Positions 54,427-64,000 of a stretch of DNA of 64,000 nt are shown piece by piece (position 1 is the first letter of the stretch; the number at the start of each line of letters is the position of its first letter). Source of the DNA: Flectonema sp. DT1601. Taxonomy: Eukaryota > Euglenozoa > Diplonemea > Diplonemida > Diplonemidae. The DNA lies in assembly GCA_964019425.1 (NCBI GenBank), contig OZ025822.1:372001-436000 (forward strand), in the 5' to 3' direction. The translations under genes and the position numbers were made by a program. The notes beneath the pieces were generated by a model. The model ran no database searches and had not been told where the DNA came from. It saw only the letters and a list, made by a program, of their open reading frames with translations.

Positions 54427-54538
54427 TTTACGCAAATCATCCATCTTGAACTTCTATTAAGCCCCTCCGTTGATCGCTTTTTTCTATCCCAAAAAGTGTA
54501 CTAACGTGGCTGCAATGCATTTTTTTTTTTTTTTTTTT

Positions 54539-54695
54539 GCATTTAACAAGTATTGTAAGAACGAAAAAGAATGTTGGCAGCACACGTAAACCTCCTTTAG
54601 CTTTATCAGTTTAAGTCGGTTCACGGTTTCGTGCACAAACAAAAAATCACAGTGTTATATCATTATTTTCTGTATAGTTGAAGTTAAAGCCAATT
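54539..54695. repeat. Dispersed repeat family B, copy 2
   Basis: GCATTTAACAAGTATTGTAA, AGCACACGTAAACCTCCTTT, AGCTTTATCAGTTTAAGTCG and TTCTGTATAGTTGAAG appear in order after a T18 run. Copy 3 starts 172 bases downstream with the same order, so these two form a tandem pair. The similarity to copy 1 (13201) covers the first 100 bases. Confidence 0.85.
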
Positions 54696-54710
54696 CTTTT
54701 TTTTTTTTTT

Positions 54711-54869
54711 GCATTTAACAAGTATTATAAAAGTGAAAAAGAATGTTGGGCAGCACACGTAAACCTCCTTTAGCTTTATCAGTTAAAGTCGGTTCGTTTC
54801 GCAACGCGAACAATACATAAATAGTGTTATATTACTATTTTCTGTATAGTATAAGGTGAAGCCAATTTT
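54711..54869. repeat. Dispersed repeat family B, copy 3
   Basis: This is the tandem partner of copy 2: GCATTTAACAAGTATTATAA, AGCACACGTAAACCTCCTTT, TTTATCAGTTAAAGTCGG and TTTTCTGTATAGTATAAGG. The GGTTCACGG / GTGCAC part of copy 2 is rearranged to GGTTCGTTTCGCAACGCGAAC here. Confidence 0.85.
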
Positions 54870-55008
54870 TTAAAATTCTTTCTTCGGATTCGAAAAAAAA
54901 CGTTACACCCGAAAAAGTCTGAACCTGTTTTTTTTTTTCGTTAAAAAAACAAACAAAACAAAAAAAAACACTCATTTTCCACTTCAGTTTTACATATTTA
55001 CTATAACA

Positions 55009-56888
55009 ATGGGTGTCCACCACGATCTGATAACAAGTGAAATGTGGGAACGTAGTGTCGCATGGGCTGCAACTAACGGTCTAACCATGGCGAGAACTGG
55101 AGGAGCGAAAGATGAGTTCACTCCTTGTCCTTTTATGGCAGTACCGACAAGTTTTCCTGAACACTTATTTACAAAAGTTCGTGACATGGAACCAGTGTTC
55201 AATAAACTAATTGACAGTGTCTCACGAGACACAAAGTTTATGGTTGAGGAACTGCAAGCAACTGCTGATGCTGATTCCTTTACTGGTGAGTTGTTAAAAA
55301 TATATAAAAAAGTGTACGTTGATTCCACTCCAACACAGAGCTTAATGCTTGGGATTCACCGCGCAGACTATATGATTAATGCTGGTGATCGTGATCAAAA
55401 AGATTGGGAAATTAGTCAAATTGAAATCAACACGATTTCTTCTGCTTTTGCTGGTCTTTCCCCGCTGGTTAACAAATTGCATAGGTATCTTTCTGCGAGG
55501 GAAAAACTTGGAATTCCTGATGAAAAAATACCTGTATCAACTTCCTGTGATGACATACCAGAGGGAATCCACACGGCGTTTTCAATTGTTCAAAAAGGTC
55601 TTAAAAAAGATGATAAACTCGAAGATGTGGTTCTCGTAGTTGAGCAAGTCGGTGAACGCAATACGTCTGATCAACGACACTTAGAACAGGTTTTATTTTC
55701 AAAGTATGGTGTTCCTTGTATCCGTCGTTCTCTGCAAGAAATTTCTAAAATTGGAAAATTATCAGACGAAAATTTGATTCTATCCGACAAGTATCGTTGT
55801 ATTGTTGTTTATTTCAGAGCTGGTTATACTCCTAACGATTACCCTGAACAGTCATGTTGGGATGCTAGATTGTTAGTTGAAAAATCAACTGCCGTTAAGT
55901 GCCCTTCTATTCCATATCACTTGACTGGCGCTAAGAAAGTTCAGCAGCTTCTTTGCAGTGAAGAGATTTTGTCTAAATATTTAACAAAAGAAGAAGTGTC
56001 GAGTGTGTTAACTGTTTTTGCTCCGATGAGTGGACTAGAAGATGAACCGGCTCAAAATAAAATAATTTCTGAAGCTATTTCGAATCCGTCTGATTGGGTT
56101 CTGAAGCCTCAGCGAGAGGGAGGAGGTAACCTTCTACATTCTGACCAAATGGTTGAAATTCTTAAAACATTGACACCTCTTCAAAGAGGTGAGTATATTT
56201 TAATGAAAAAAATTCGACCACCACCATCCAAATCAGCCGTTGTACGAGATGACAACCTTATCACCGACAGTTTTATATCTGAACTTGGTATCTATGGTCT
56301 ATTTGTTGGCAACGGTGACGAAGCCTTTGTGAATAAGGTATGTATCAATTTTTTTTTTTTTTTTTTTTTGTTATTTCATTTTTTTGAGATAGAATTCCAG
56401 CAGACAAAGAAAAGTAAAAGAACTGTACTAGCATGACATCAGAAAAAATCCATAAACGCAATTCACTCTTCACCGATCTCGGAATAAGCACTACATCCTC
56501 TGGTGCCAACCTGCCATTGTTGGTCTGATTAATAACTCTCCTCGCATGTTTAACAGCAAACCAATATCGACCTGGAGAAACAGCGCTTCGGCGAAAAAAA
56601 AAAAAAAAAATGAAGGATAATTCTAACAAAAAATAGCAGTTTTTCTCCTCCCTCTATTTTTTAACCCTTCCCCCACATTATTATTTTTTTCGTTTTTTTT
56701 TTTTCTTCTTTTTTTTTTTTTTCTTGCAACGTTAAGGCATTGATTCTACAGCATATGAATACTGAAAAAAAAAAAAAAACAAAAAAAAACAGGCTGCTGG
56801 TCATTTGTTACGCTCAAAACCAGAACACCAGGAAGATGGAGGAGTTGCCTCTGGGGTTGCTGCTCTTGATTCTATTGTTTTCATGTAG
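55009..56888 (+). CDS. GSS: Glutathione synthetase, two exons
   Basis: Exon 1 is 55009-56337 (443 codons). A 455-base intron (56338-56792; GTATGT...AAAACAG) is followed by exon 2 at 56793-56888, which supplies AAGHLLRSKPEHQEDGGVAS, GVAALDSIVFM. The total of 474 residues equals the usual eukaryotic length. Key blocks are EISQIEINTISSAF near the N-terminal third, VLKPQREGGGNLLHSDQMV (the ATP-grasp glycine-rich region), YILMKKIRPPP and the C-terminal GGVASGVA loop. The enzyme joins glycine to gamma-glutamylcysteine using ATP, the last step of glutathione synthesis in the cytosol. The intron contains a family-C repeat on the opposite strand. The acceptor CCACTTCAG lies 21 bases before the start. 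Confidence 0.95.
56386..56593 (-). repeat. Dispersed repeat family C, long copy
   Basis: Read on the minus strand it begins CGCCGAAGCG after a T run and ends in the block ATGCTAGTACAGTTCTTTTA...TGCTGGAATTCTATCT that is identical in the 33203-33281 copy. It lies within the glutathione synthetase intron and is antisense to the gene. The 130 bases unique to this copy are GC-richer. I could not classify it. Confidence 0.8.
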
Positions 56889-57241: not shown

Positions 57242-57273
<32 letters not shown>

Positions 57274-57497
57274 CTCCGCCGTAGTCCTTTCACACTACAA
57301 ATTTCTAAGTAGTTTTTGACATTAGTTTCTTAAAGTATTTTATTTCTTAAGATAGTTTTCTGAAGAACTTAAAAAATGTTGAATCCAATCTAATTATGGA
57401 TACCGGTTAAACCTGCTGATGCAACTCTCAACTTTTTAACATAATTAATACTCGTTGTGACTCACATAATAAAATATTATTAATCTATCAAAGTCAA
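56889..57497. other. Spacer
   Basis: No gene is seen. T runs occur near 57188 and 57246-57273. A weak acceptor-like TCAAAG ends at 57493, just before the next ATG at 57498. No strong YAG is closer than this, so the start of the next gene is less certain than most. Confidence 0.55.
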
Positions 57498-60400
57498 ATG
57501 CAACAAGATGATGAGGACGAGGATGAGAAATGTTCTCTGTGTGGGTTCAAGAAGTCAATTGTTGAAGTGTGTCCGAAGACGTTTAAGAAGCACACGAGTA
57601 GCGAAACCAAACAATCAGAGAGAGCAACCACAGCTAGTGGCTCAGATGAAAAGTGTGAGTTGTGTGGGTTCAAGAAATCAATAGTAGAGGTCTGTCCCAA
57701 AACATTCAAACCTCACGCCACATCAGCAACAGCCGAGGAAAGCAAACAACCAGACTCGCAGGCTGCTGAGCAAGCCGTCTCCACTTCTGATGAAAAGTGT
57801 GAACTGTGCGGATTCAAGAAGTCGATTGTTGAAGTCTGTCCCAAAACATTCAAACCTCACGTTGCAGTAAAGAAGCCGCCGACAGATACGGAAACTGCCT
57901 TACCGACAGAGAGTACTTCTGATGAAAAGTGTGAGCTGTGCGGCTTTAAGAAATCAGTTGTGGAGGTCTGTCCCAAAACATTCAAACCTCACGTCACATC
58001 ATCAGCCGAAGAAAGCAATCGGCCAACCACACAACCGACAGACGGTGGCTCAGATGAAAAGTGTGAGTTGTGCGGCTTTAAGAAGTCAGTTGTGGAGGTC
58101 TGTCCCAAAACATTCAAACCTCACGTCACATCAGCAACGGTTGAGGAAAGCAAACAACCAGACTCGCAGGCTGCTGAGCAAACCGACTCCACTTCTGATG
58201 AAAAGTGTGAACTGTGCGGATTCAAGAAGTCGGTTGTTGAAGTCTGCCCCAAAACATTCAAACCTCACGTTGCAGTAAAGAAGCCGCCGGCAGATACGGA
58301 AACTGCCCTACCGACAGAGAGCACTTCTGATGAAAAGTGTGAGCTGTGCGGCTTTAAGAAATCAGTTGTGGAGGTCTGCCCTAAGACATTCAAACCACAC
58401 GTCACGCTGACAGAAGTCGAGGAAAGTGAGCAGCCAACCACGCAAACAGACAGTACTTCTGATGAAAAGTGTGAACTGTGCGGCTTTAAGAAGTCAGTTG
58501 TGGAAGTCTGCCCCAAAACATTCAAACCTCACGTCATATCATCAAAGGTTAAAGAAAGTAAGGAATCGTCAGCTGAAATATGTCAACTGTGCGGACTAAA
58601 GAAGTTAATTGTTGAGGTCTGCCCGAAAACATTTAAACCCCACGAGTCGGTACTTTCTTCCTCTTCACAAGAATGTGATGAGGAAGATGAAGACGAGGAA
58701 GAACCTTCCTGTCAAAAGTGTGGGTTTTCAATAAGTATGACTGATATCTGTCCTGAAACTAATTTACCACATGAAAAAGACATCAAACAAACTGCCGTTC
58801 CTTCTCACGAAAGTAGTGATAGCAGTGAAGAGGAAGAAGAAGAACCGTCGTGCACAAAGTGTGGGTTTTCACTAAGTATGACTGATATTTGTCCTGAAAC
58901 TAACTTACCACATGAAAAAACTACTGCTACGACTGCAGCTGAAGCAACTGTATCGGACTCTGAAGAGGAAGAAGAAGAGCCATCCTGTGACAAGTGTGGC
59001 TTCTCTATGAGCATGACCGATATTTGTCCAGAAACTAACTTACCACATAATCGAGACCCAGTTCCAAATACGAATCCTAGTGAGGAAGTTAAAGACACAG
59101 ACATAGAACCAACGCCTACTACTGATGGTAAATGTAATCTGTGTGGCTTCACTGTTACTGTGGTGGAGACTTGTCCAAAGACGCTTAAACCTCATATTCT
59201 TCCGAAAGCTGCAGCTGCAGTAGACGGAAAGTGTGGTTTGTGTGGATTCACTTTAGCGATAGTAGAAGTCTGTCCTAAAACTTTAAAACCTCATATCGTA
59301 CCTGAACAGAAGAAATCGAATGATGGGAAGTGTGGTTTGTGTGGATTTAACTTAGCCGTCGTGGAGATCTGTCCCTCGACACTGAAACCGCATGTGTCAC
59401 CAACACCAACACCGACTACTGACGGGAAGTGTAATTTATGTGGTTTTACTGTGTCTATAATTGAAGTATGTCCTAAGACGCTACAACCACATGTACTTCC
59501 TCAGCAACCTCCTGCAGAACCTGGTAAGTGTGGACTCTGTGGGTTTACTTTGACAATTGTTGAGATCTGTCCAAAAACACTGAAACCACACATTTCGTCT
59601 GATTCTGTACCTGAAATTGAAGAGATGTGTCGAGCATGTGGACTTTCAAAAACAAAAATAGAAACATGTCCTGAGACAAGCATCCCTCACAACAGAGAAG
59701 TAGCAAGCAGGAGTAGAAGTAGCTCTGGGTCATCTTTAGATGGTCCTGTTTGTGGAAAGTGTGAATATTTAATAAAAGAGAAGGATACTTGTCCGATAAC
59801 TGACGAGCCTCATATTTTAAAGGAAAGTGATATCGATTTGACAGTTAGAGTAGTTCCACCATCTCCTGCTGACACTAGTTTTGATGACGTACCAAAATCA
59901 AATGTTCAAACTGTAGTAATGAGAATTGATACAAATCCTTGGGAGAGAATCAGGTCACAACTTAATAGTATTCAGGACAAGGCAAAGCGTGCTTCATGGA
60001 AACAAAGTTCACCAGTGGCAACCGCAGCTTGGAAACAGAAATTAAAAAATCAAATCAGATCAAGAGAACCAACACCAGGTCTTTGGTCGAACATTCCAAA
60101 ATCAACTTCGAAGTTAGAATCTGATTCGAGAGCGACTTCACCAGCGTCGATGCAACTGAGTGCGGACAGTGCTTTTAGTGACATATCTGATGGGCATACT
60201 GAGGAACCTATACCAGATCGTGTGAGTATGACGGAAGAAGACTTAGCCGACGAACTTATCGCGATAGACAACAGCGGGTATATTAATAAGATACACAATC
60301 CAGTAGTAGAAACACCTGTTTTAGCTGAAGAAGCACCATCCGTTGGAATGTCCGTCGCAGAGAATGACACTGACAGTAATGCTTCACAAATGTCTGTTAA

Positions 60401-63400
60401 GGAATCTGTTTGCGAAGTACCTGTTTGTGTTGTTGTAGATGAGGAAGTATCTGAGTCGCATACAACGTTGACCGCCCCAAAACATATTAGTGACACTGCC
60501 GTTGATAGATATACAGAACTTATTGATAAAGCGACTGTTCTGAGAACTGTTAGTAAACAAATCATACCAACACTCACTAGTGAGTTGGAATATTTAAGTG
60601 GAGGAATGGAGTCATCGAATCAAAGGATGGAAGAAGCGATCTCAAAACACACCAGCGATCCGACCAGAAATCCATCACTTGTAAAGTCATCAGCAATCGC
60701 TTGGCTATTAGATGAAGAAGGCGTTGATACTCCCCCGGAGATACCTCTTCCGGCATTTGATTCAATTTTTACACCAAAAAGAGTAACTCCGTTACCATCA
60801 CCGTTACCAAGCACAACTAAATCAGAGATCCAATCAAGTTCAATTCCCTCTCCAGTTCCCCATCCAGCTGATCTTTCATTCAACACATTAGCACCCTTGT
60901 CATGGGAAGACGCTCAGCGTATATTATTCAACCAAGTAATTGTTAACAGAGAGGGGTCTTTTGAAGAAGAAGAAAAAGTTTTAGAAACAAATGCTTTTGA
61001 GAATGCGCAAAAAGCTCAAGAACGAGAAGACAGACAAAGGGAACGAATGCAGAGAATAATTCAAAATGAGATTCAAAGCCCTTCCCTAGATGATGATACC
61101 ACTACAAAACAGAGTTATGAGAGGGACACAGAAACGTACAGCGACAGTTGTGATCAGATACGATACTCACCATCGTCTACTTGCAGCTCAACAGTAAAAA
61201 CAAAACCTGCTTCTTGTTCGTCTTCACATTCGGTTGATTCTACTTCCGGTGATGAGGGAGACGTAGCAGCTGTGAATCCGGCTTTTAATTATTTATATTC
61301 AGCAAGAGGAACTTCTTCACCTTCTCGATCTATGTCACCTTACCAATGTGTTTCTGTTGAAAAAAGAAAGGATCCACGATCCTTTCCTACGACACCTGTT
61401 GTACAGAAACCAGATGTTATTCAGCTACTGGACGTTCATAGTACTTGGGTATCGAAGACACTTCTGAATGAAACGATAGCAACTCAAACTGATGTAAGTA
61501 CTGGTTCAGAAATAATATCAATGCAGAAAAAGGTTCAAAATGTATCTTCTCCTCCATCTACTGCTGTGATCTCCTCATCACAATTAGATCGCCTTCTTAT
61601 GACTCCAACTAGACGATATCAATGTGAGTCACCTGAGAAGTCACCATCATATTCATCTCCTGTTTACAGTTCTAATGAGAAGTTCCAAGAGAGTGAAGTA
61701 GTTATAAATAACACCGTCAGCAGTGCTGAAGAGTTTGTTTGTGTAAAACAACCGTCAGCAGGAGCAGGAGGAGATACCCCACCAGTAGTAGTGTTGTCAT
61801 CTTTTAATAAAACTAAACCTTCTACTAATGAAGTGTTACCTCCTCCAAGTATTGATTCTCTTACTGAAGTAGTCAGCAGGGAAATCAAATCCGAGAGAGT
61901 AATCTCATCGTCGTCACTCACTCCTGAGTCGGTTCCAACAGCTGTTGTCGCAACACTAGACGGGTATCGCAGTAGTAACAACAGCGACGTGGATGTTGAA
62001 ATAATAAAGTCATCGACTTCACTACAACCCGATATCAACTCAGAGAAGTCTGTTGCAGACGTGGCACTCGACGCAGATAGAAGTACAGCAGGTCAACAGA
62101 CTGTTGGGGTAATTAACGACCCTCAGTCTCTTGGTGATGAGAAGTGCACCCTGTGCGGATTCAAGATTTCTATAGTGGAAGTCTGTCCCAAGACGCTGAA
62201 GCCGCACAATGCTGATGGAAGTACAGCAGATCAGCAGTCGGCTTGTAAGGAAACTACTGCTGTTGCTGCTGCTGCTCCTTCAGATGATGAGAAGTGCACC
62301 CTGTGCGGGTTCAAGATCTCCATCGTGGAAGTCTGTCCCAAAACACTGAAACCACACCATGTTGACATCACAGTTGATCAAACAGTGCAAGAGAGTAGCT
62401 CCCCACCTTCTGATAATGAAAAGCCTGTCGAAGTGTCTTACAATTCTAATACTAATCAACACAACGTTGATGGAAGTACAACAGAGCAGCATAAGGAAGT
62501 CCTCATTTCTTCAGCTGATGAGAAGTGCACCCTGTGCGGATTCAAGATCTCCATCGTAGAAGTCTGTCCAAAGACGTTGAAGCCGCACAACGTTGGCGGA
62601 AGAGCAGCAGATCAGCCGGCTAGTGAGGAAACTGTTTCTGTCCCCGCAGATGATGAAAAGTGTGCCCTGTGCGGATTCAAGATTTCTATTGTAGAGGTCT
62701 GTCCCAAGACACTGAAGCCACACAAGGCTGACGGAAGTACAGCAGATCAGCAACAGGCTAGTGAGGAAACTGCTGTTGCTACCCCTGCAGATGATGAAAA
62801 ATGCACCCTGTGCGGGTTCAAGATTTCTATTGTAGAGGTCTGTCCCAGGACACTGAAGCCGCACAACGTTAATGGAAGTACAGCAGGTCAGCAGTCGGCT
62901 TGTAAGGAAACTACTGCTGCTGCTGCTCCTTCAGATGATGAGAAGTGCACCCTGTGCGGGTTCAAGATCTCCATCGTAGAAGTCTGTCCAAAGACGTTGA
63001 AGCCGCACGACGTTGGCGGAAGAACAGCAGATCAGCAACAGGCTAGTGAGGAAACTGCTGTTGCTACCCCTGCAGATGATGAAAAATGTACCCTGTGCGG
63101 GTTCAAGATTTCTATTGTAGAGGTCTGTCCCAGGACACTGAAGCCACACAACATTGATGGAAGTACAGCAGATCAACAACAGGCTAGTGAGGAAACTACT
63201 GCTGTTGCTACCTCTGCAGATGATGAAAAGTGTGTCCTGTGCGGGTTCAAGATCTCCATCGTAGAAGTCTGTCCAAAGACGTTGAAGCCGCACAACGTTG
63301 GCGGAAGAATAGCAGATCAACAGCCGGCTAGTGAGGAAACTGCTCCCGCAGATGATGAAAAGTGTGTCCTGTGCGGATTCAAGATCTCCATCGTAGAAGT

Positions 63401-64000
63401 CTGTCCCAAGACACTGAAGCCGCACAATGTTGATGGAAGTACAGCAGATCAACAACTGGCTAGTGAAACTGCTGCTGTTGCTGCCGCTGCTACCTCTGCA
63501 GATGATGAGAAGTGCACCCTGTGCGGGTTCAAGATCTCCATCGTGGAAGTCTGTCCAAAGACATTGAAGCCGCACAACGTTGGCGGAAGTACAGCAGATC
63601 AACGACCTGATGAAACCGTCAGTACTACTTCACCTGACGAGAAGTGTACTCTCTGTGGGTTCAAGATTTCTATAGTGGAAGTCTGTCCAAAGACACTGAA
63701 GCCGCACAACGTTGACGGAGACACAGCTAGTAAGGAACCTGCTCCCTCGGATGACGAAAAGTGCACCCTGTGCGGATTCAAAATCTCTATTGTGGAAGTC
63801 TGTCCCAAGACGCTGAAGCCACACTCTCACAGTAAAGAATCTAAACCTGAAGAGTGCAGAGATGTTGTTAAAGAACAATTAGATATTAGCCTCACTCAGG
63901 TGGATACCGAATCCGACTGTGAAAGTACCAGTTCGGAGAATCGTTATAAAAATATGTATCCGATTGGATCAAAGGTAATAGCTCACGGATTATCAAAAAA
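57498..64000 (+). CDS. Giant protein with 31 CxxC-x9-C-x6-H modules, open at window end
   Basis: One frame runs without a stop from the ATG at 57498 to the edge (2167 codons so far). Residues about 9-770 hold 19 modules such as KCELCGFKKSVVEVCPKTFK-PH. A Ser/Thr/Glu-rich linker of about 770 residues follows. Twelve more modules (KCTLCGFKISIVEVCPKTLK-PH) lie at 62140-63830. Each has C-x2-C-x9-C-x6-H, a likely zinc site. Variants include SMTDICPETNLPH (three units near 58700-59050). Linkers between modules are Ala/Thr/Ser/Glu-rich and vary from about 10 to 55 residues. I do not recognise the family. Three Cys and one His per module are kept in every copy, so selection on metal binding is likely. 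The minus-strand open frames opposite the repeats are shadows. Confidence 0.85.
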   Translation, partial: MQQDDEDEDEKCSLCGFKKSIVEVCPKTFKKHTSSETKQSERATTASGSDEKCELCGFKKSIVEVCPKTFKPHATSATAEESKQPDSQAAEQAVSTSDEKCELCGFKKSIVEVCPKTFKPHVAVKKPPTDTETALPTESTSDEKCELCGFKKSVVEVCPKTFKPHVTSSAEESNRPTTQPTDGGSDEKCELCGFKKSVVEVCPKTFKPHVTSATVEESKQPDSQAAEQTDSTSDEKCELCGFKKSVVEVCPKTFKPHVAVKKPPADTETALPTESTSDEKCELCGFKKSVVEVCPKTFKPHVTLTEVEESEQPTTQTDSTSDEKCELCGFKKSVVEVCPKTFKPHVISSKVKESKESSAEICQLCGLKKLIVEVCPKTFKPHESVLSSSSQECDEEDEDEEEPSCQKCGFSISMTDICPETNLPHEKDIKQTAVPSHESSDSSEEEEEEPSCTKCGFSLSMTDICPETNLPHEKTTATTAAEATVSDSEEEEEEPSCDKCGFSMSMTDICPETNLPHNRDPVPNTNPSEEVKDTDIEPTPTTDGKCNLCGFTVTVVETCPKTLKPHILPKAAAAVDGKCGLCGFTLAIVEVCPKTLKPHIVPEQKKSNDGKCGLCGFNLAVVEICPSTLKPHVSPTPTPTTDGKCNLCGFTVSIIEVCPKTLQPHVLPQQPPAEPGKCGLCGFTLTIVEICPKTLKPHISSDSVPEIEEMCRACGLSKTKIETCPETSIPHNREVASRSRSSSGSSLDGPVCGKCEYLIKEKDTCPITDEPHILKESDIDLTVRVVPPSPADTSFDDVPKSNVQTVVMRIDTNPWERIRSQLNSIQDKAKRASWKQSSPVATAAWKQKLKNQIRSREPTPGLWSNIPKSTSKLESDSRATSPASMQLSADSAFSDISDGHTEEPIPDRVSMTEEDLADELIAIDNSGYINKIHNPVVETPVLAEEAPSVGMSVAENDTDSNASQMSVKESVCEVPVCVVVDEEVSESHTTLTAPKHISDTAVDRYTELIDKATVLRTVSKQIIPTLTSELEYLSGGMESSNQRMEEAISKHTSDPTRNPSLVKSSAIAWLLDEEGVDTPPEIPLPAFDSIFTPKRVTPLPSPLPSTTKSEIQSSSIPSPVPHPADLSFNTLAPLSWEDAQRILFNQVIVNREGSFEEEEKVLETNAFENAQKAQEREDRQRERMQRIIQNEIQSPSLDDDTTTKQSYERDTETYSDSCDQIRYSPSSTCSSTVKTKPASCSSSHSVDSTSGDEGDVAAVNPAFNYLYSARGTSSPSRSMSPYQCVSVEKRKDPRSFPTTPVVQKPDVIQLLDVHSTWVSKTLLNETIATQTDVSTGSEIISMQKKVQNVSSPPSTAVISSSQLDRLLMTPTRRYQCESPEKSPSYSSPVYSSNEKFQESEVVINNTVSSAEEFVCVKQPSAGAGGDTPPVVVLSSFNKTKPSTNEVLPPPSIDSLTEVVSREIKSERVISSSSLTPESVPTAVVATLDGYRSSNNSDVDVEIIKSSTSLQPDINSEKSVADVALDADRSTAGQQTVGVINDPQSLGDEKCTLCGFKISIVEVCPKTLKPHNADGSTADQQSACKETTAVAAAAPSDDEKCTLCGFKISIVEVCPKTLKPHHVDITVDQTVQESSSPPSDNEKPVEVSYNSNTNQHNVDGSTTEQHKEVLISSADEKCTLCGFKISIVEVCPKTLKPHNVGGRAADQPASEETVSVPADDEKCALCGFKISIVEVCPKTLKPHKADGSTADQQQASEETAVATPADDEKCTLCGFKISIVEVCPRTLKPHNVNGSTAGQQSACKETTAAAAPSDDEKCTLCGFKISIVEVCPKTLKPHDVGGRTADQQQASEETAVATPADDEKCTLCGFKISIVEVCPRTLKPHNIDGSTADQQQASEETTAVATSADDEKCVLCGFKISIVEVCPKTLKPHNVGGRIADQQPASEETAPADDEKCVLCGFKISIVEVCPKTLKPHNVDGSTADQQLASETAAVAAAATSADDEKCTLCGFKISIVEVCPKTLKPHNVGGSTADQRPDETVSTTSPDEKCTLCGFKISIVEVCPKTLKPHNVDGDTASKEPAPSDDEKCTLCGFKISIVEVCPKTLKPHSHSKESKPEECRDVVKEQLDISLTQVDTESDCESTSSENRYKNMYPIGSKVIAHGLSK
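57522..59810 (+). repeat. Module array 1: nineteen CCCH modules
   Basis: Modules start near 57528, 57649, 57795, 57921, 58050, 58197, 58328, 58460, 58574, 58707, 58849, 58984, 59130, 59230, 59328, 59427, 59525, 59625 and 59755. The first eight carry CGFKKS...EVCPKTFK and a DEKC lead-in. Modules 10-12 form a separate subfamily (CGFSxSMTDICPETNLPH), and 13-17 a third (CGF...CPKTLKPH). Spacing is 96-147 bases. The last two are the most diverged. Confidence 0.9.
62140..63835 (+). repeat. Module array 2: twelve near-identical CCCH modules
   Basis: Modules begin near 62147, 62290, 62520, 62655, 62797, 62939, 63081, 63225, 63354, 63506, 63640 and 63753. The DNA of the module (ACCCTGTGCGGGTTCAAGAT, ...GTAGAAGTCTGTCCAAAGAC) and of the linker (GATGGAAGTACAGCAGATCA) is nearly identical between copies, with typical spacing of 128-152 bases and one of 230. 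That degree of identity implies recent or continuing duplication and gene conversion, in contrast with the older array 1. Confidence 0.92.

Follow-up and report, generated by a model that had tools for sequence, protein, structure and literature searches.

NZF / RanBP2-type zinc fingers are small one-zinc modules with a CxxC knuckle and a four-cysteine pattern, C-x2-4-C-x10-C-x2-C, and tandem fingers of this type occur in RanBP2, Nup153 and TRABID. Zinc ribbons of the Nop10, DZR and Zn_ribbon kind carry a CxxCG knuckle followed by about nine residues to a CP, and metallothioneins with repeated domains gather many thiolate metal sites in one cysteine-rich chain with few hydrophobic residues. 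The modules described here resemble the NZF / RanBP2 type in size, knuckle, similar spacing to the third ligand and single as well as tandem use, the ribbons in their knuckle and spacing, and the metallothioneins in the number of presumed metal sites per chain. However, 31 of 31 modules in the giant gene read C-x2-C-x9-C-x6-H instead of the four-cysteine pattern, with a second knuckle of C-x6-H containing CPxTxxPH where NZF / RanBP2-type fingers have CxxC; matches to Nop10-type ribbons end before the module's histidine; and the modules conserve hydrophobic and P/T positions, in contrast to metallothioneins.

WxxD and HHCR motifs mark the FYVE fingers of endosomal proteins such as RUFY1 and EEA1, and also those of the predicted second exon of the giant gene. 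TbFRP, a FYVE-GTPase restricted to Euglenozoa according to PMC3593210, offers a Euglenozoan precedent for FYVE fused to unusual partners. The predicted giant gene departs from all three by joining FYVE to a 31-module array, a C2 domain and a histidine phosphatase. PMC10161547 ranks diplonemids with the most abundant marine microeukaryotes known and states for Diplonema papillatum that about half of the predicted genes have no indicated function, that genes are co-transcribed in groups, that the leader is 39 bp long, and that about 41% of genes contain introns, most of them GT-AG. Here we analysed a window of 64,000 bases from a diplonemid genome and, with about even confidence, read its giant gene from sequence as encoding a cytoplasmic multivalent scaffold anchored to PI3P membranes.

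Organization of the giant gene

The searched genome is an 89.5-megabase assembly of 92 contigs, and the window lies on a 1.0-megabase contig. An ATG at 57498 on the forward strand starts a giant frame that stays open past the window end (Table 1). Read through, the frame has 2,402 residues and stops at contig position 436706 (64706 on the window scale), 706 bases beyond the window edge; its first residues, MQQ, are shared with a relative from EukProt, P0003. The preliminary description had reported one open frame, which holds for all 31 modules, but the gene is incomplete in the window and the frame stop falls inside a probable intron.

Table 1. Features of the giant gene, numbered on the window scale.
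Feature	Position	Strand	Basis
Candidate trans-splice acceptor, 28 T then CTCCGCCGTAG	57246..57284	+	sequence
Exon 1	57498..64000, on to 64700	+	open frame
Array 1 block A, modules 1-9, CELCGFKKSxVEVCPKTFKPH type	57531..58643	+	pattern
Array 1 block B, modules 10-12, acidic linkers, CxKCGFSxSMTDICPETNLPH	58710..59048	+	pattern
Array 1 block C, modules 13-17, GKCxLCGFT type	59133..59591	+	pattern
Array 1 single module 18, CRACGLSKTKIETCPETSIPH	59628..59690	+	pattern
Array 1 single module 19, CGKCEYLIKEKDTCPITDEPH	59751..59813	+	pattern
Module-free middle region	59814..62144	+	stretches conserved in relative P0003
Array 2, modules 20-31, CTLCGFKISIVEVCPKTLKPH type	62145..63824	+	pattern, silent sites, DNA identity
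Start of SH3-like stretch GL..VNG..G.V	63942..64000	+	query ran to 64160, beyond the window
Predicted intron, GT...AG, phase 0	64701-64998, outside the window	+	sequence
Exon 2	64999-67131, outside the window	+	open frame

Pfam gave nothing above cut-off in the middle region and no match for the GL..VNG..G.V stretch, which we take to be SH3-like. This stretch recurs on contigs 12, 29 and 48 (L048, L050-L056) and on contig 16, at E 2.6e-4 and weaker, and some frames carry it several times. Elsewhere in the window, a 172-base unit stands in two copies (85% matching, 54523-54871) between two long ORFs.

Module count and pattern

A regular expression for C-x2-C-x9-C-x6-H matched the read-through frame exactly 31 times, in agreement with the earlier count, while 500 shuffles of the giant protein gave a mean of 0.002 matches and at most one. 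Array 1 holds 19 modules (residues 12-772) and array 2 holds 12 (residues 1550-2109), and 93 of the 108 cysteines in the frame lie inside modules. The CPKT/CPET-xx-PH ending previously reported was found in 26 of the 31; the deviating modules are 1 (KKH), 15 (CPST), 19 (CPIT), and 24 and 26 (both CPRT). Across the two species compared (the window gene and P0003), all 56 modules keep C, C, C, P, T and H unchanged, G is kept in 54/56 and F in 48/56, and F, V or I predominate in module columns 6, 10, 11 and 13. The net charge is +43 for the 31 modules (651 residues) and -105 for the 29 linkers, whose lengths range from 12 to 56 residues. The array is found at one place in the genome: all 11 pattern matches of the genome search lay on the giant frame, as did 25 of the 26 matches of the genome protein search, the 26th being a reverse-strand chance match (E 0.109).

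Selection and array history

We compared module copies at silent and amino-acid-changing sites. Module copies are not independent and the pN/pS ratios are therefore descriptive only: they were 0.046 among array 2 modules (pS 0.457, pN 0.021), 0.058 among block A modules 1-8, 0.122 in block B and 0.183 in block C, against 0.49 in array 2 linkers (10 of 11, the long linker after module 21 being left out) and 0.46 in array 1 linkers after modules 2-7 (6 of 18). The claim that the four presumed ligands are kept while the linkers drift was thus upheld (0.05-0.18 in modules versus 0.46-0.49 in linkers), and these residues are kept in the second species too. Array 2, which had been called near-identical, is so in protein, but its modules are only 81-99% identical in DNA. 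Since silent sites differ by 46%, the sameness of the array 2 proteins reflects selection. On these silent-site differences we rejected recent copying of array 2, and the idea that it is still expanding, as drawn from its near-identity, had to be dropped; array 1 also has units just as close, such as 3 and 6.

Whole-unit DNA identity, taken over seven array 1 units and ten array 2 units, revealed block copies in both arrays. In array 1, units 2 and 5 were 91% identical and units 3 and 6 were 96% identical; in array 2, the values were 93% for units 20 and 24, 93-95% for unit 22 with 25 and 27, and 93% for units 23 and 26. The triplet copy in array 1 is not clean, because units 4 and 7 (84%) are less alike than units 4 and 5 (90%).

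The relative P0003

Searched against 5.8 billion proteins, the 2,402-residue frame had one match at E 0.01 besides itself, namely P0003; the search scored 7,998 candidates of 0.55-1.75 times the query length, and the single match stands within that range. P0003 has 1,744 residues, is 45% identical over 68%, and carries 25 modules in the same block order, and its transcript looks orthologous to the giant gene. With blocks assigned by eye and by best matches, and with the P0003 transcript possibly incomplete, the module counts in the window gene and P0003 were 9 and 8 for block A, 3 and 3 for block B, 5 and 10 for block C, 2 and 2 for the singles, and 12 and 2 for array 2. The ten block C modules of P0003 form five pairs. 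Module 18 corresponds to P0003 module 22 (16/25 positions identical) and module 19 to P0003 module 23 (22/25). Because the block order is common to both, the array 1 subfamilies predate the species split. Judged by these counts, copy number differs between the two species by blocks, with different blocks affected in each lineage.

Family and fold of the module

The modules had not been placed in any known zinc-finger family, and profile searches led to the same result, with no Pfam or NCBIfam model above its cut-off. The best Pfam row on module pieces was the Adenylate kinase lid (PF05191), at 25.1 against a cut-off of 26.6 over 18 residues; the zinc-ribbon rows were all below cut-off, the best being DZR_2 (19.9 against 27) and Zn_ribbon_6 (19.1 against 25). 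Weak profile matches to Nop10 covered module positions 2-20 or 4-22, and matches to RBM10, ZRANB2 and the HOIL1-L NZF were weak and non-significant. The 2,167-residue window frame had no match at E 1 among PDB sequences, no paper of the literature library searched contained CX2CX9CX6H, and the listed results of the other literature searches included no description of the module.

An AlphaFold2 model of the module built with 24 family rows had a mean pLDDT of 83.3, with 19 of 33 residues at 90 or above, and had bridge residues 6, 13, 19 and 26 next to the presumed ligands 7, 10, 20 and 27. With 28 window rows the mean pLDDT was 76.7 and the bridges were unchanged. Fold searches gave no significant match. 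We consider it very likely that every module holds a structural zinc.

Single modules elsewhere in the genome

Outside the giant gene, CPxTGxPH occurred at 5 places in the genome (control 0) and [FY]CxxTGxPH at 15 (control 1); the two lists share four places and together cover 16, spread over 15 ORFs. At 14 of the 15 [FY]CxxTGxPH places a CxxC stands 6-12 residues upstream (the exception, L062, has C-x4-C), compared with 39 of 622 cysteines (6%) in module-free ORFs, and this upstream CxxC is, at the level of sequence, an independent sign that the single modules are kin to the array. Including L034, 14 ORFs bear a single or paired module with CxxC. Single and array modules aligned in hhalign at 96.6% (6.7e-10), and none of 200 column shuffles that kept the ligands in place scored as high, although selection of the single modules by C..TG.PH patterns largely imposes T, G, P and H on both comparisons. 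The comparison of A2 with A3 was circular and was set aside. With a plain HMM built from the 56 array modules, P0005 was clear (3.3e-5) and P0006 weak (0.072), P0004 (0.91) and P0009 (4) fell below a shuffled sequence (0.59), and P0007, P0008, P0010 and P0011 were not listed.

The proteins that carry single modules are unlike each other: one is a RING protein, one is membrane-protein-like, and several have no Pfam family above cut-off. The membrane-protein-like one (P0010, P0011), perhaps amastin-like, has several hydrophobic stretches and one N-terminal CxxC...FCGATGNPH module, which is kept in a second species. Searching with the joined module set (2,646 candidates) yielded seven proteins, six from ENA and one from EukProt. 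The six ENA proteins are probably this genome's own, because they share sequence with its loci L057, L060, L063, L065, L066 and L071. The L036 frame, searched against 7,999 candidates, retrieved nothing but itself (P0004), and A2 pattern matches in viral_contigs (12) and genome_contigs (13) included none that was confirmed as a viral or prokaryotic relative. Within the reach of the word-based, length-limited search with the joined module set, the module may be limited to diplonemids.

Predicted intron and the FYVE-C2-phosphatase continuation

Exon 1 apparently ends in TTG before GTATGA, the TGA of which is the frame stop. At 298 bases further on, past a T run and TAACAG, there begins a second, in-phase open frame of 710 residues; splicing to it would bring the product to about 3,111 residues. 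Above Pfam cut-offs, exon 2 matched FYVE in two stretches (PF01363; 4.2e-31, 107.3 bits against 27.8), His_Phos_1 (PF00300; 1.2e-10, 41.8 bits against 21.7) and C2 (PF00168; 2.8e-5, 24.7 bits against 22). It carries WxxD and RHHCRxCG or KHHCRxCG in the FYVE fingers, and RHG, SPLxRAxQT and VGHS in the phosphatase part; we take WxxD, HHCR and these three in their presumed FYVE and histidine phosphatase meanings. Among solved FYVE relatives RUFY1 ranked first (3.2e-16) and EEA1 lower (4.7e-12), and the phosphatase part matched solved enzymes weakly in a plain sequence search (best E 0.056). The last 423 residues of exon 2 have no close paralog in the genome, with one weak match (E 0.0026). Two more window genes, a glutathione-synthetase-like gene and an ankyrin gene, are interrupted likewise by introns read by eye. 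In the former (55009-56436), the conserved end AGHLLRSK...GGVASGVAALDS reappears after AG from about 56793.

On this sequence evidence the array and the FYVE-C2-phosphatase part likely form one spliced gene. It is rather unlikely that they are two genes, one for the array protein of 2,402 residues and a downstream one for FYVE, C2 and phosphatase that has a spliced-leader site to itself. The P0003 transcript ORF, which is labelled complete and ends after two array 2 modules without the SH3-like and FYVE parts, would suit two genes, and the polypyrimidine run and AG ahead of exon 2 would equally suit trans-splicing. However, the downstream frame opens exactly at the acceptor, and its SH3-like stretch starts 141 bases ahead of its first in-frame ATG (L009:3158 versus 3299). 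Joining the exons is in phase and removes both stops, and two SH3-like stretches flank the intron, one on each side.

Proposed function

In the scaffold that we favour, each module would fold into two facing knuckles round one structural zinc, with three cysteines and one histidine as its ligands, and the linkers between modules would be disordered. The FYVE pair would tether the giant protein to PI3P membranes; such binding is predicted because the two fingers carry WxxD and HHCR motifs. The 31-module arm would bind one or a few kinds of partner in many copies, and either cluster them or deliver them to the phosphatase. A flexible multivalent arm fits because the modules are basic and the linkers acidic, and a binding role for the module fits because single modules sit in otherwise different proteins. 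The arrays would gain and lose units by block duplication while selection preserves every module.

The preliminary description had offered a metal store, a multivalent scaffold and a sensor; the scaffold came out ahead. A zinc store or buffer, in which the array would hold about 31 zinc ions for release like a giant metallothionein, would account for 31 presumed sites under strong selection and for cysteines concentrated in the modules, but it would not need invariant P and T or the well-kept G and F, none of which are ligands. Single modules in unlike proteins, and a continuation with FYVE, C2 and phosphatase that suggests a membrane role, also speak against storage, which we consider improbable. 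Cysteine-rich zinc sites can be redox-sensitive, and folding or unfolding of modules in response to zinc or redox state might switch membrane clustering or phosphatase activity; many copies would presumably steepen such a response, and we give this sensor a similarly small chance. A nucleic-acid-binding array, like C2H2 or RanBP2-type RNA-binding arrays, would agree with the net basic modules and the weak likeness to RBM10 and ZRANB2 fingers, yet the linkers are long and strongly acidic and FYVE and C2 indicate membranes, making it very improbable.

More tentatively than for the scaffold itself, we suggest that diplonemids are where an unnamed zinc module, C-x2-C-x(7-11)-C-x2-T-[G]-x-P-H, originated or spread, serving as a protein-binding unit of general use. 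Its 31-fold array on a PI3P-bound phosphatase would then form a multivalent membrane scaffold, and block duplication would alter the valence of this scaffold from species to species. The module, which matched no curated family and turns up in several unlike proteins of the genome, could already receive a name and an annotation. The giant gene is also a natural test of repeat-number evolution under strict per-unit selection, because the two species share block order and not copy number.

Spliced leader

A spliced-leader core, searched with at most two mismatches, matched 754 genome places (control 0). Among the matches listed, contigs 16 and 20 show regular series, with a spacing of about 623 bases on contig 16 (from 1432460) and about 610 bases on contig 20 (from 1248665); arrays of spliced-leader RNA genes would be expected to look like this. 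Four fetched loci all read ACCAACGATTCTAAAGCTACAGTTTCTGTACTTTATTG, which we take to be a diplonemid-type spliced leader. Given a spliced leader in the genome, the T run upstream of the giant frame may serve as its trans-splice acceptor. Complete spliced-leader exons also lie outside the regular series, at L072-L075 on contigs 1 and 2; in three of these four, a frame of at least 466 codons starts within 71 bases, and two of these frames reach the end of the fetched stretch. Retrocopies of trans-spliced mRNAs, or retroelements that bear the leader, are possible explanations of these loci.
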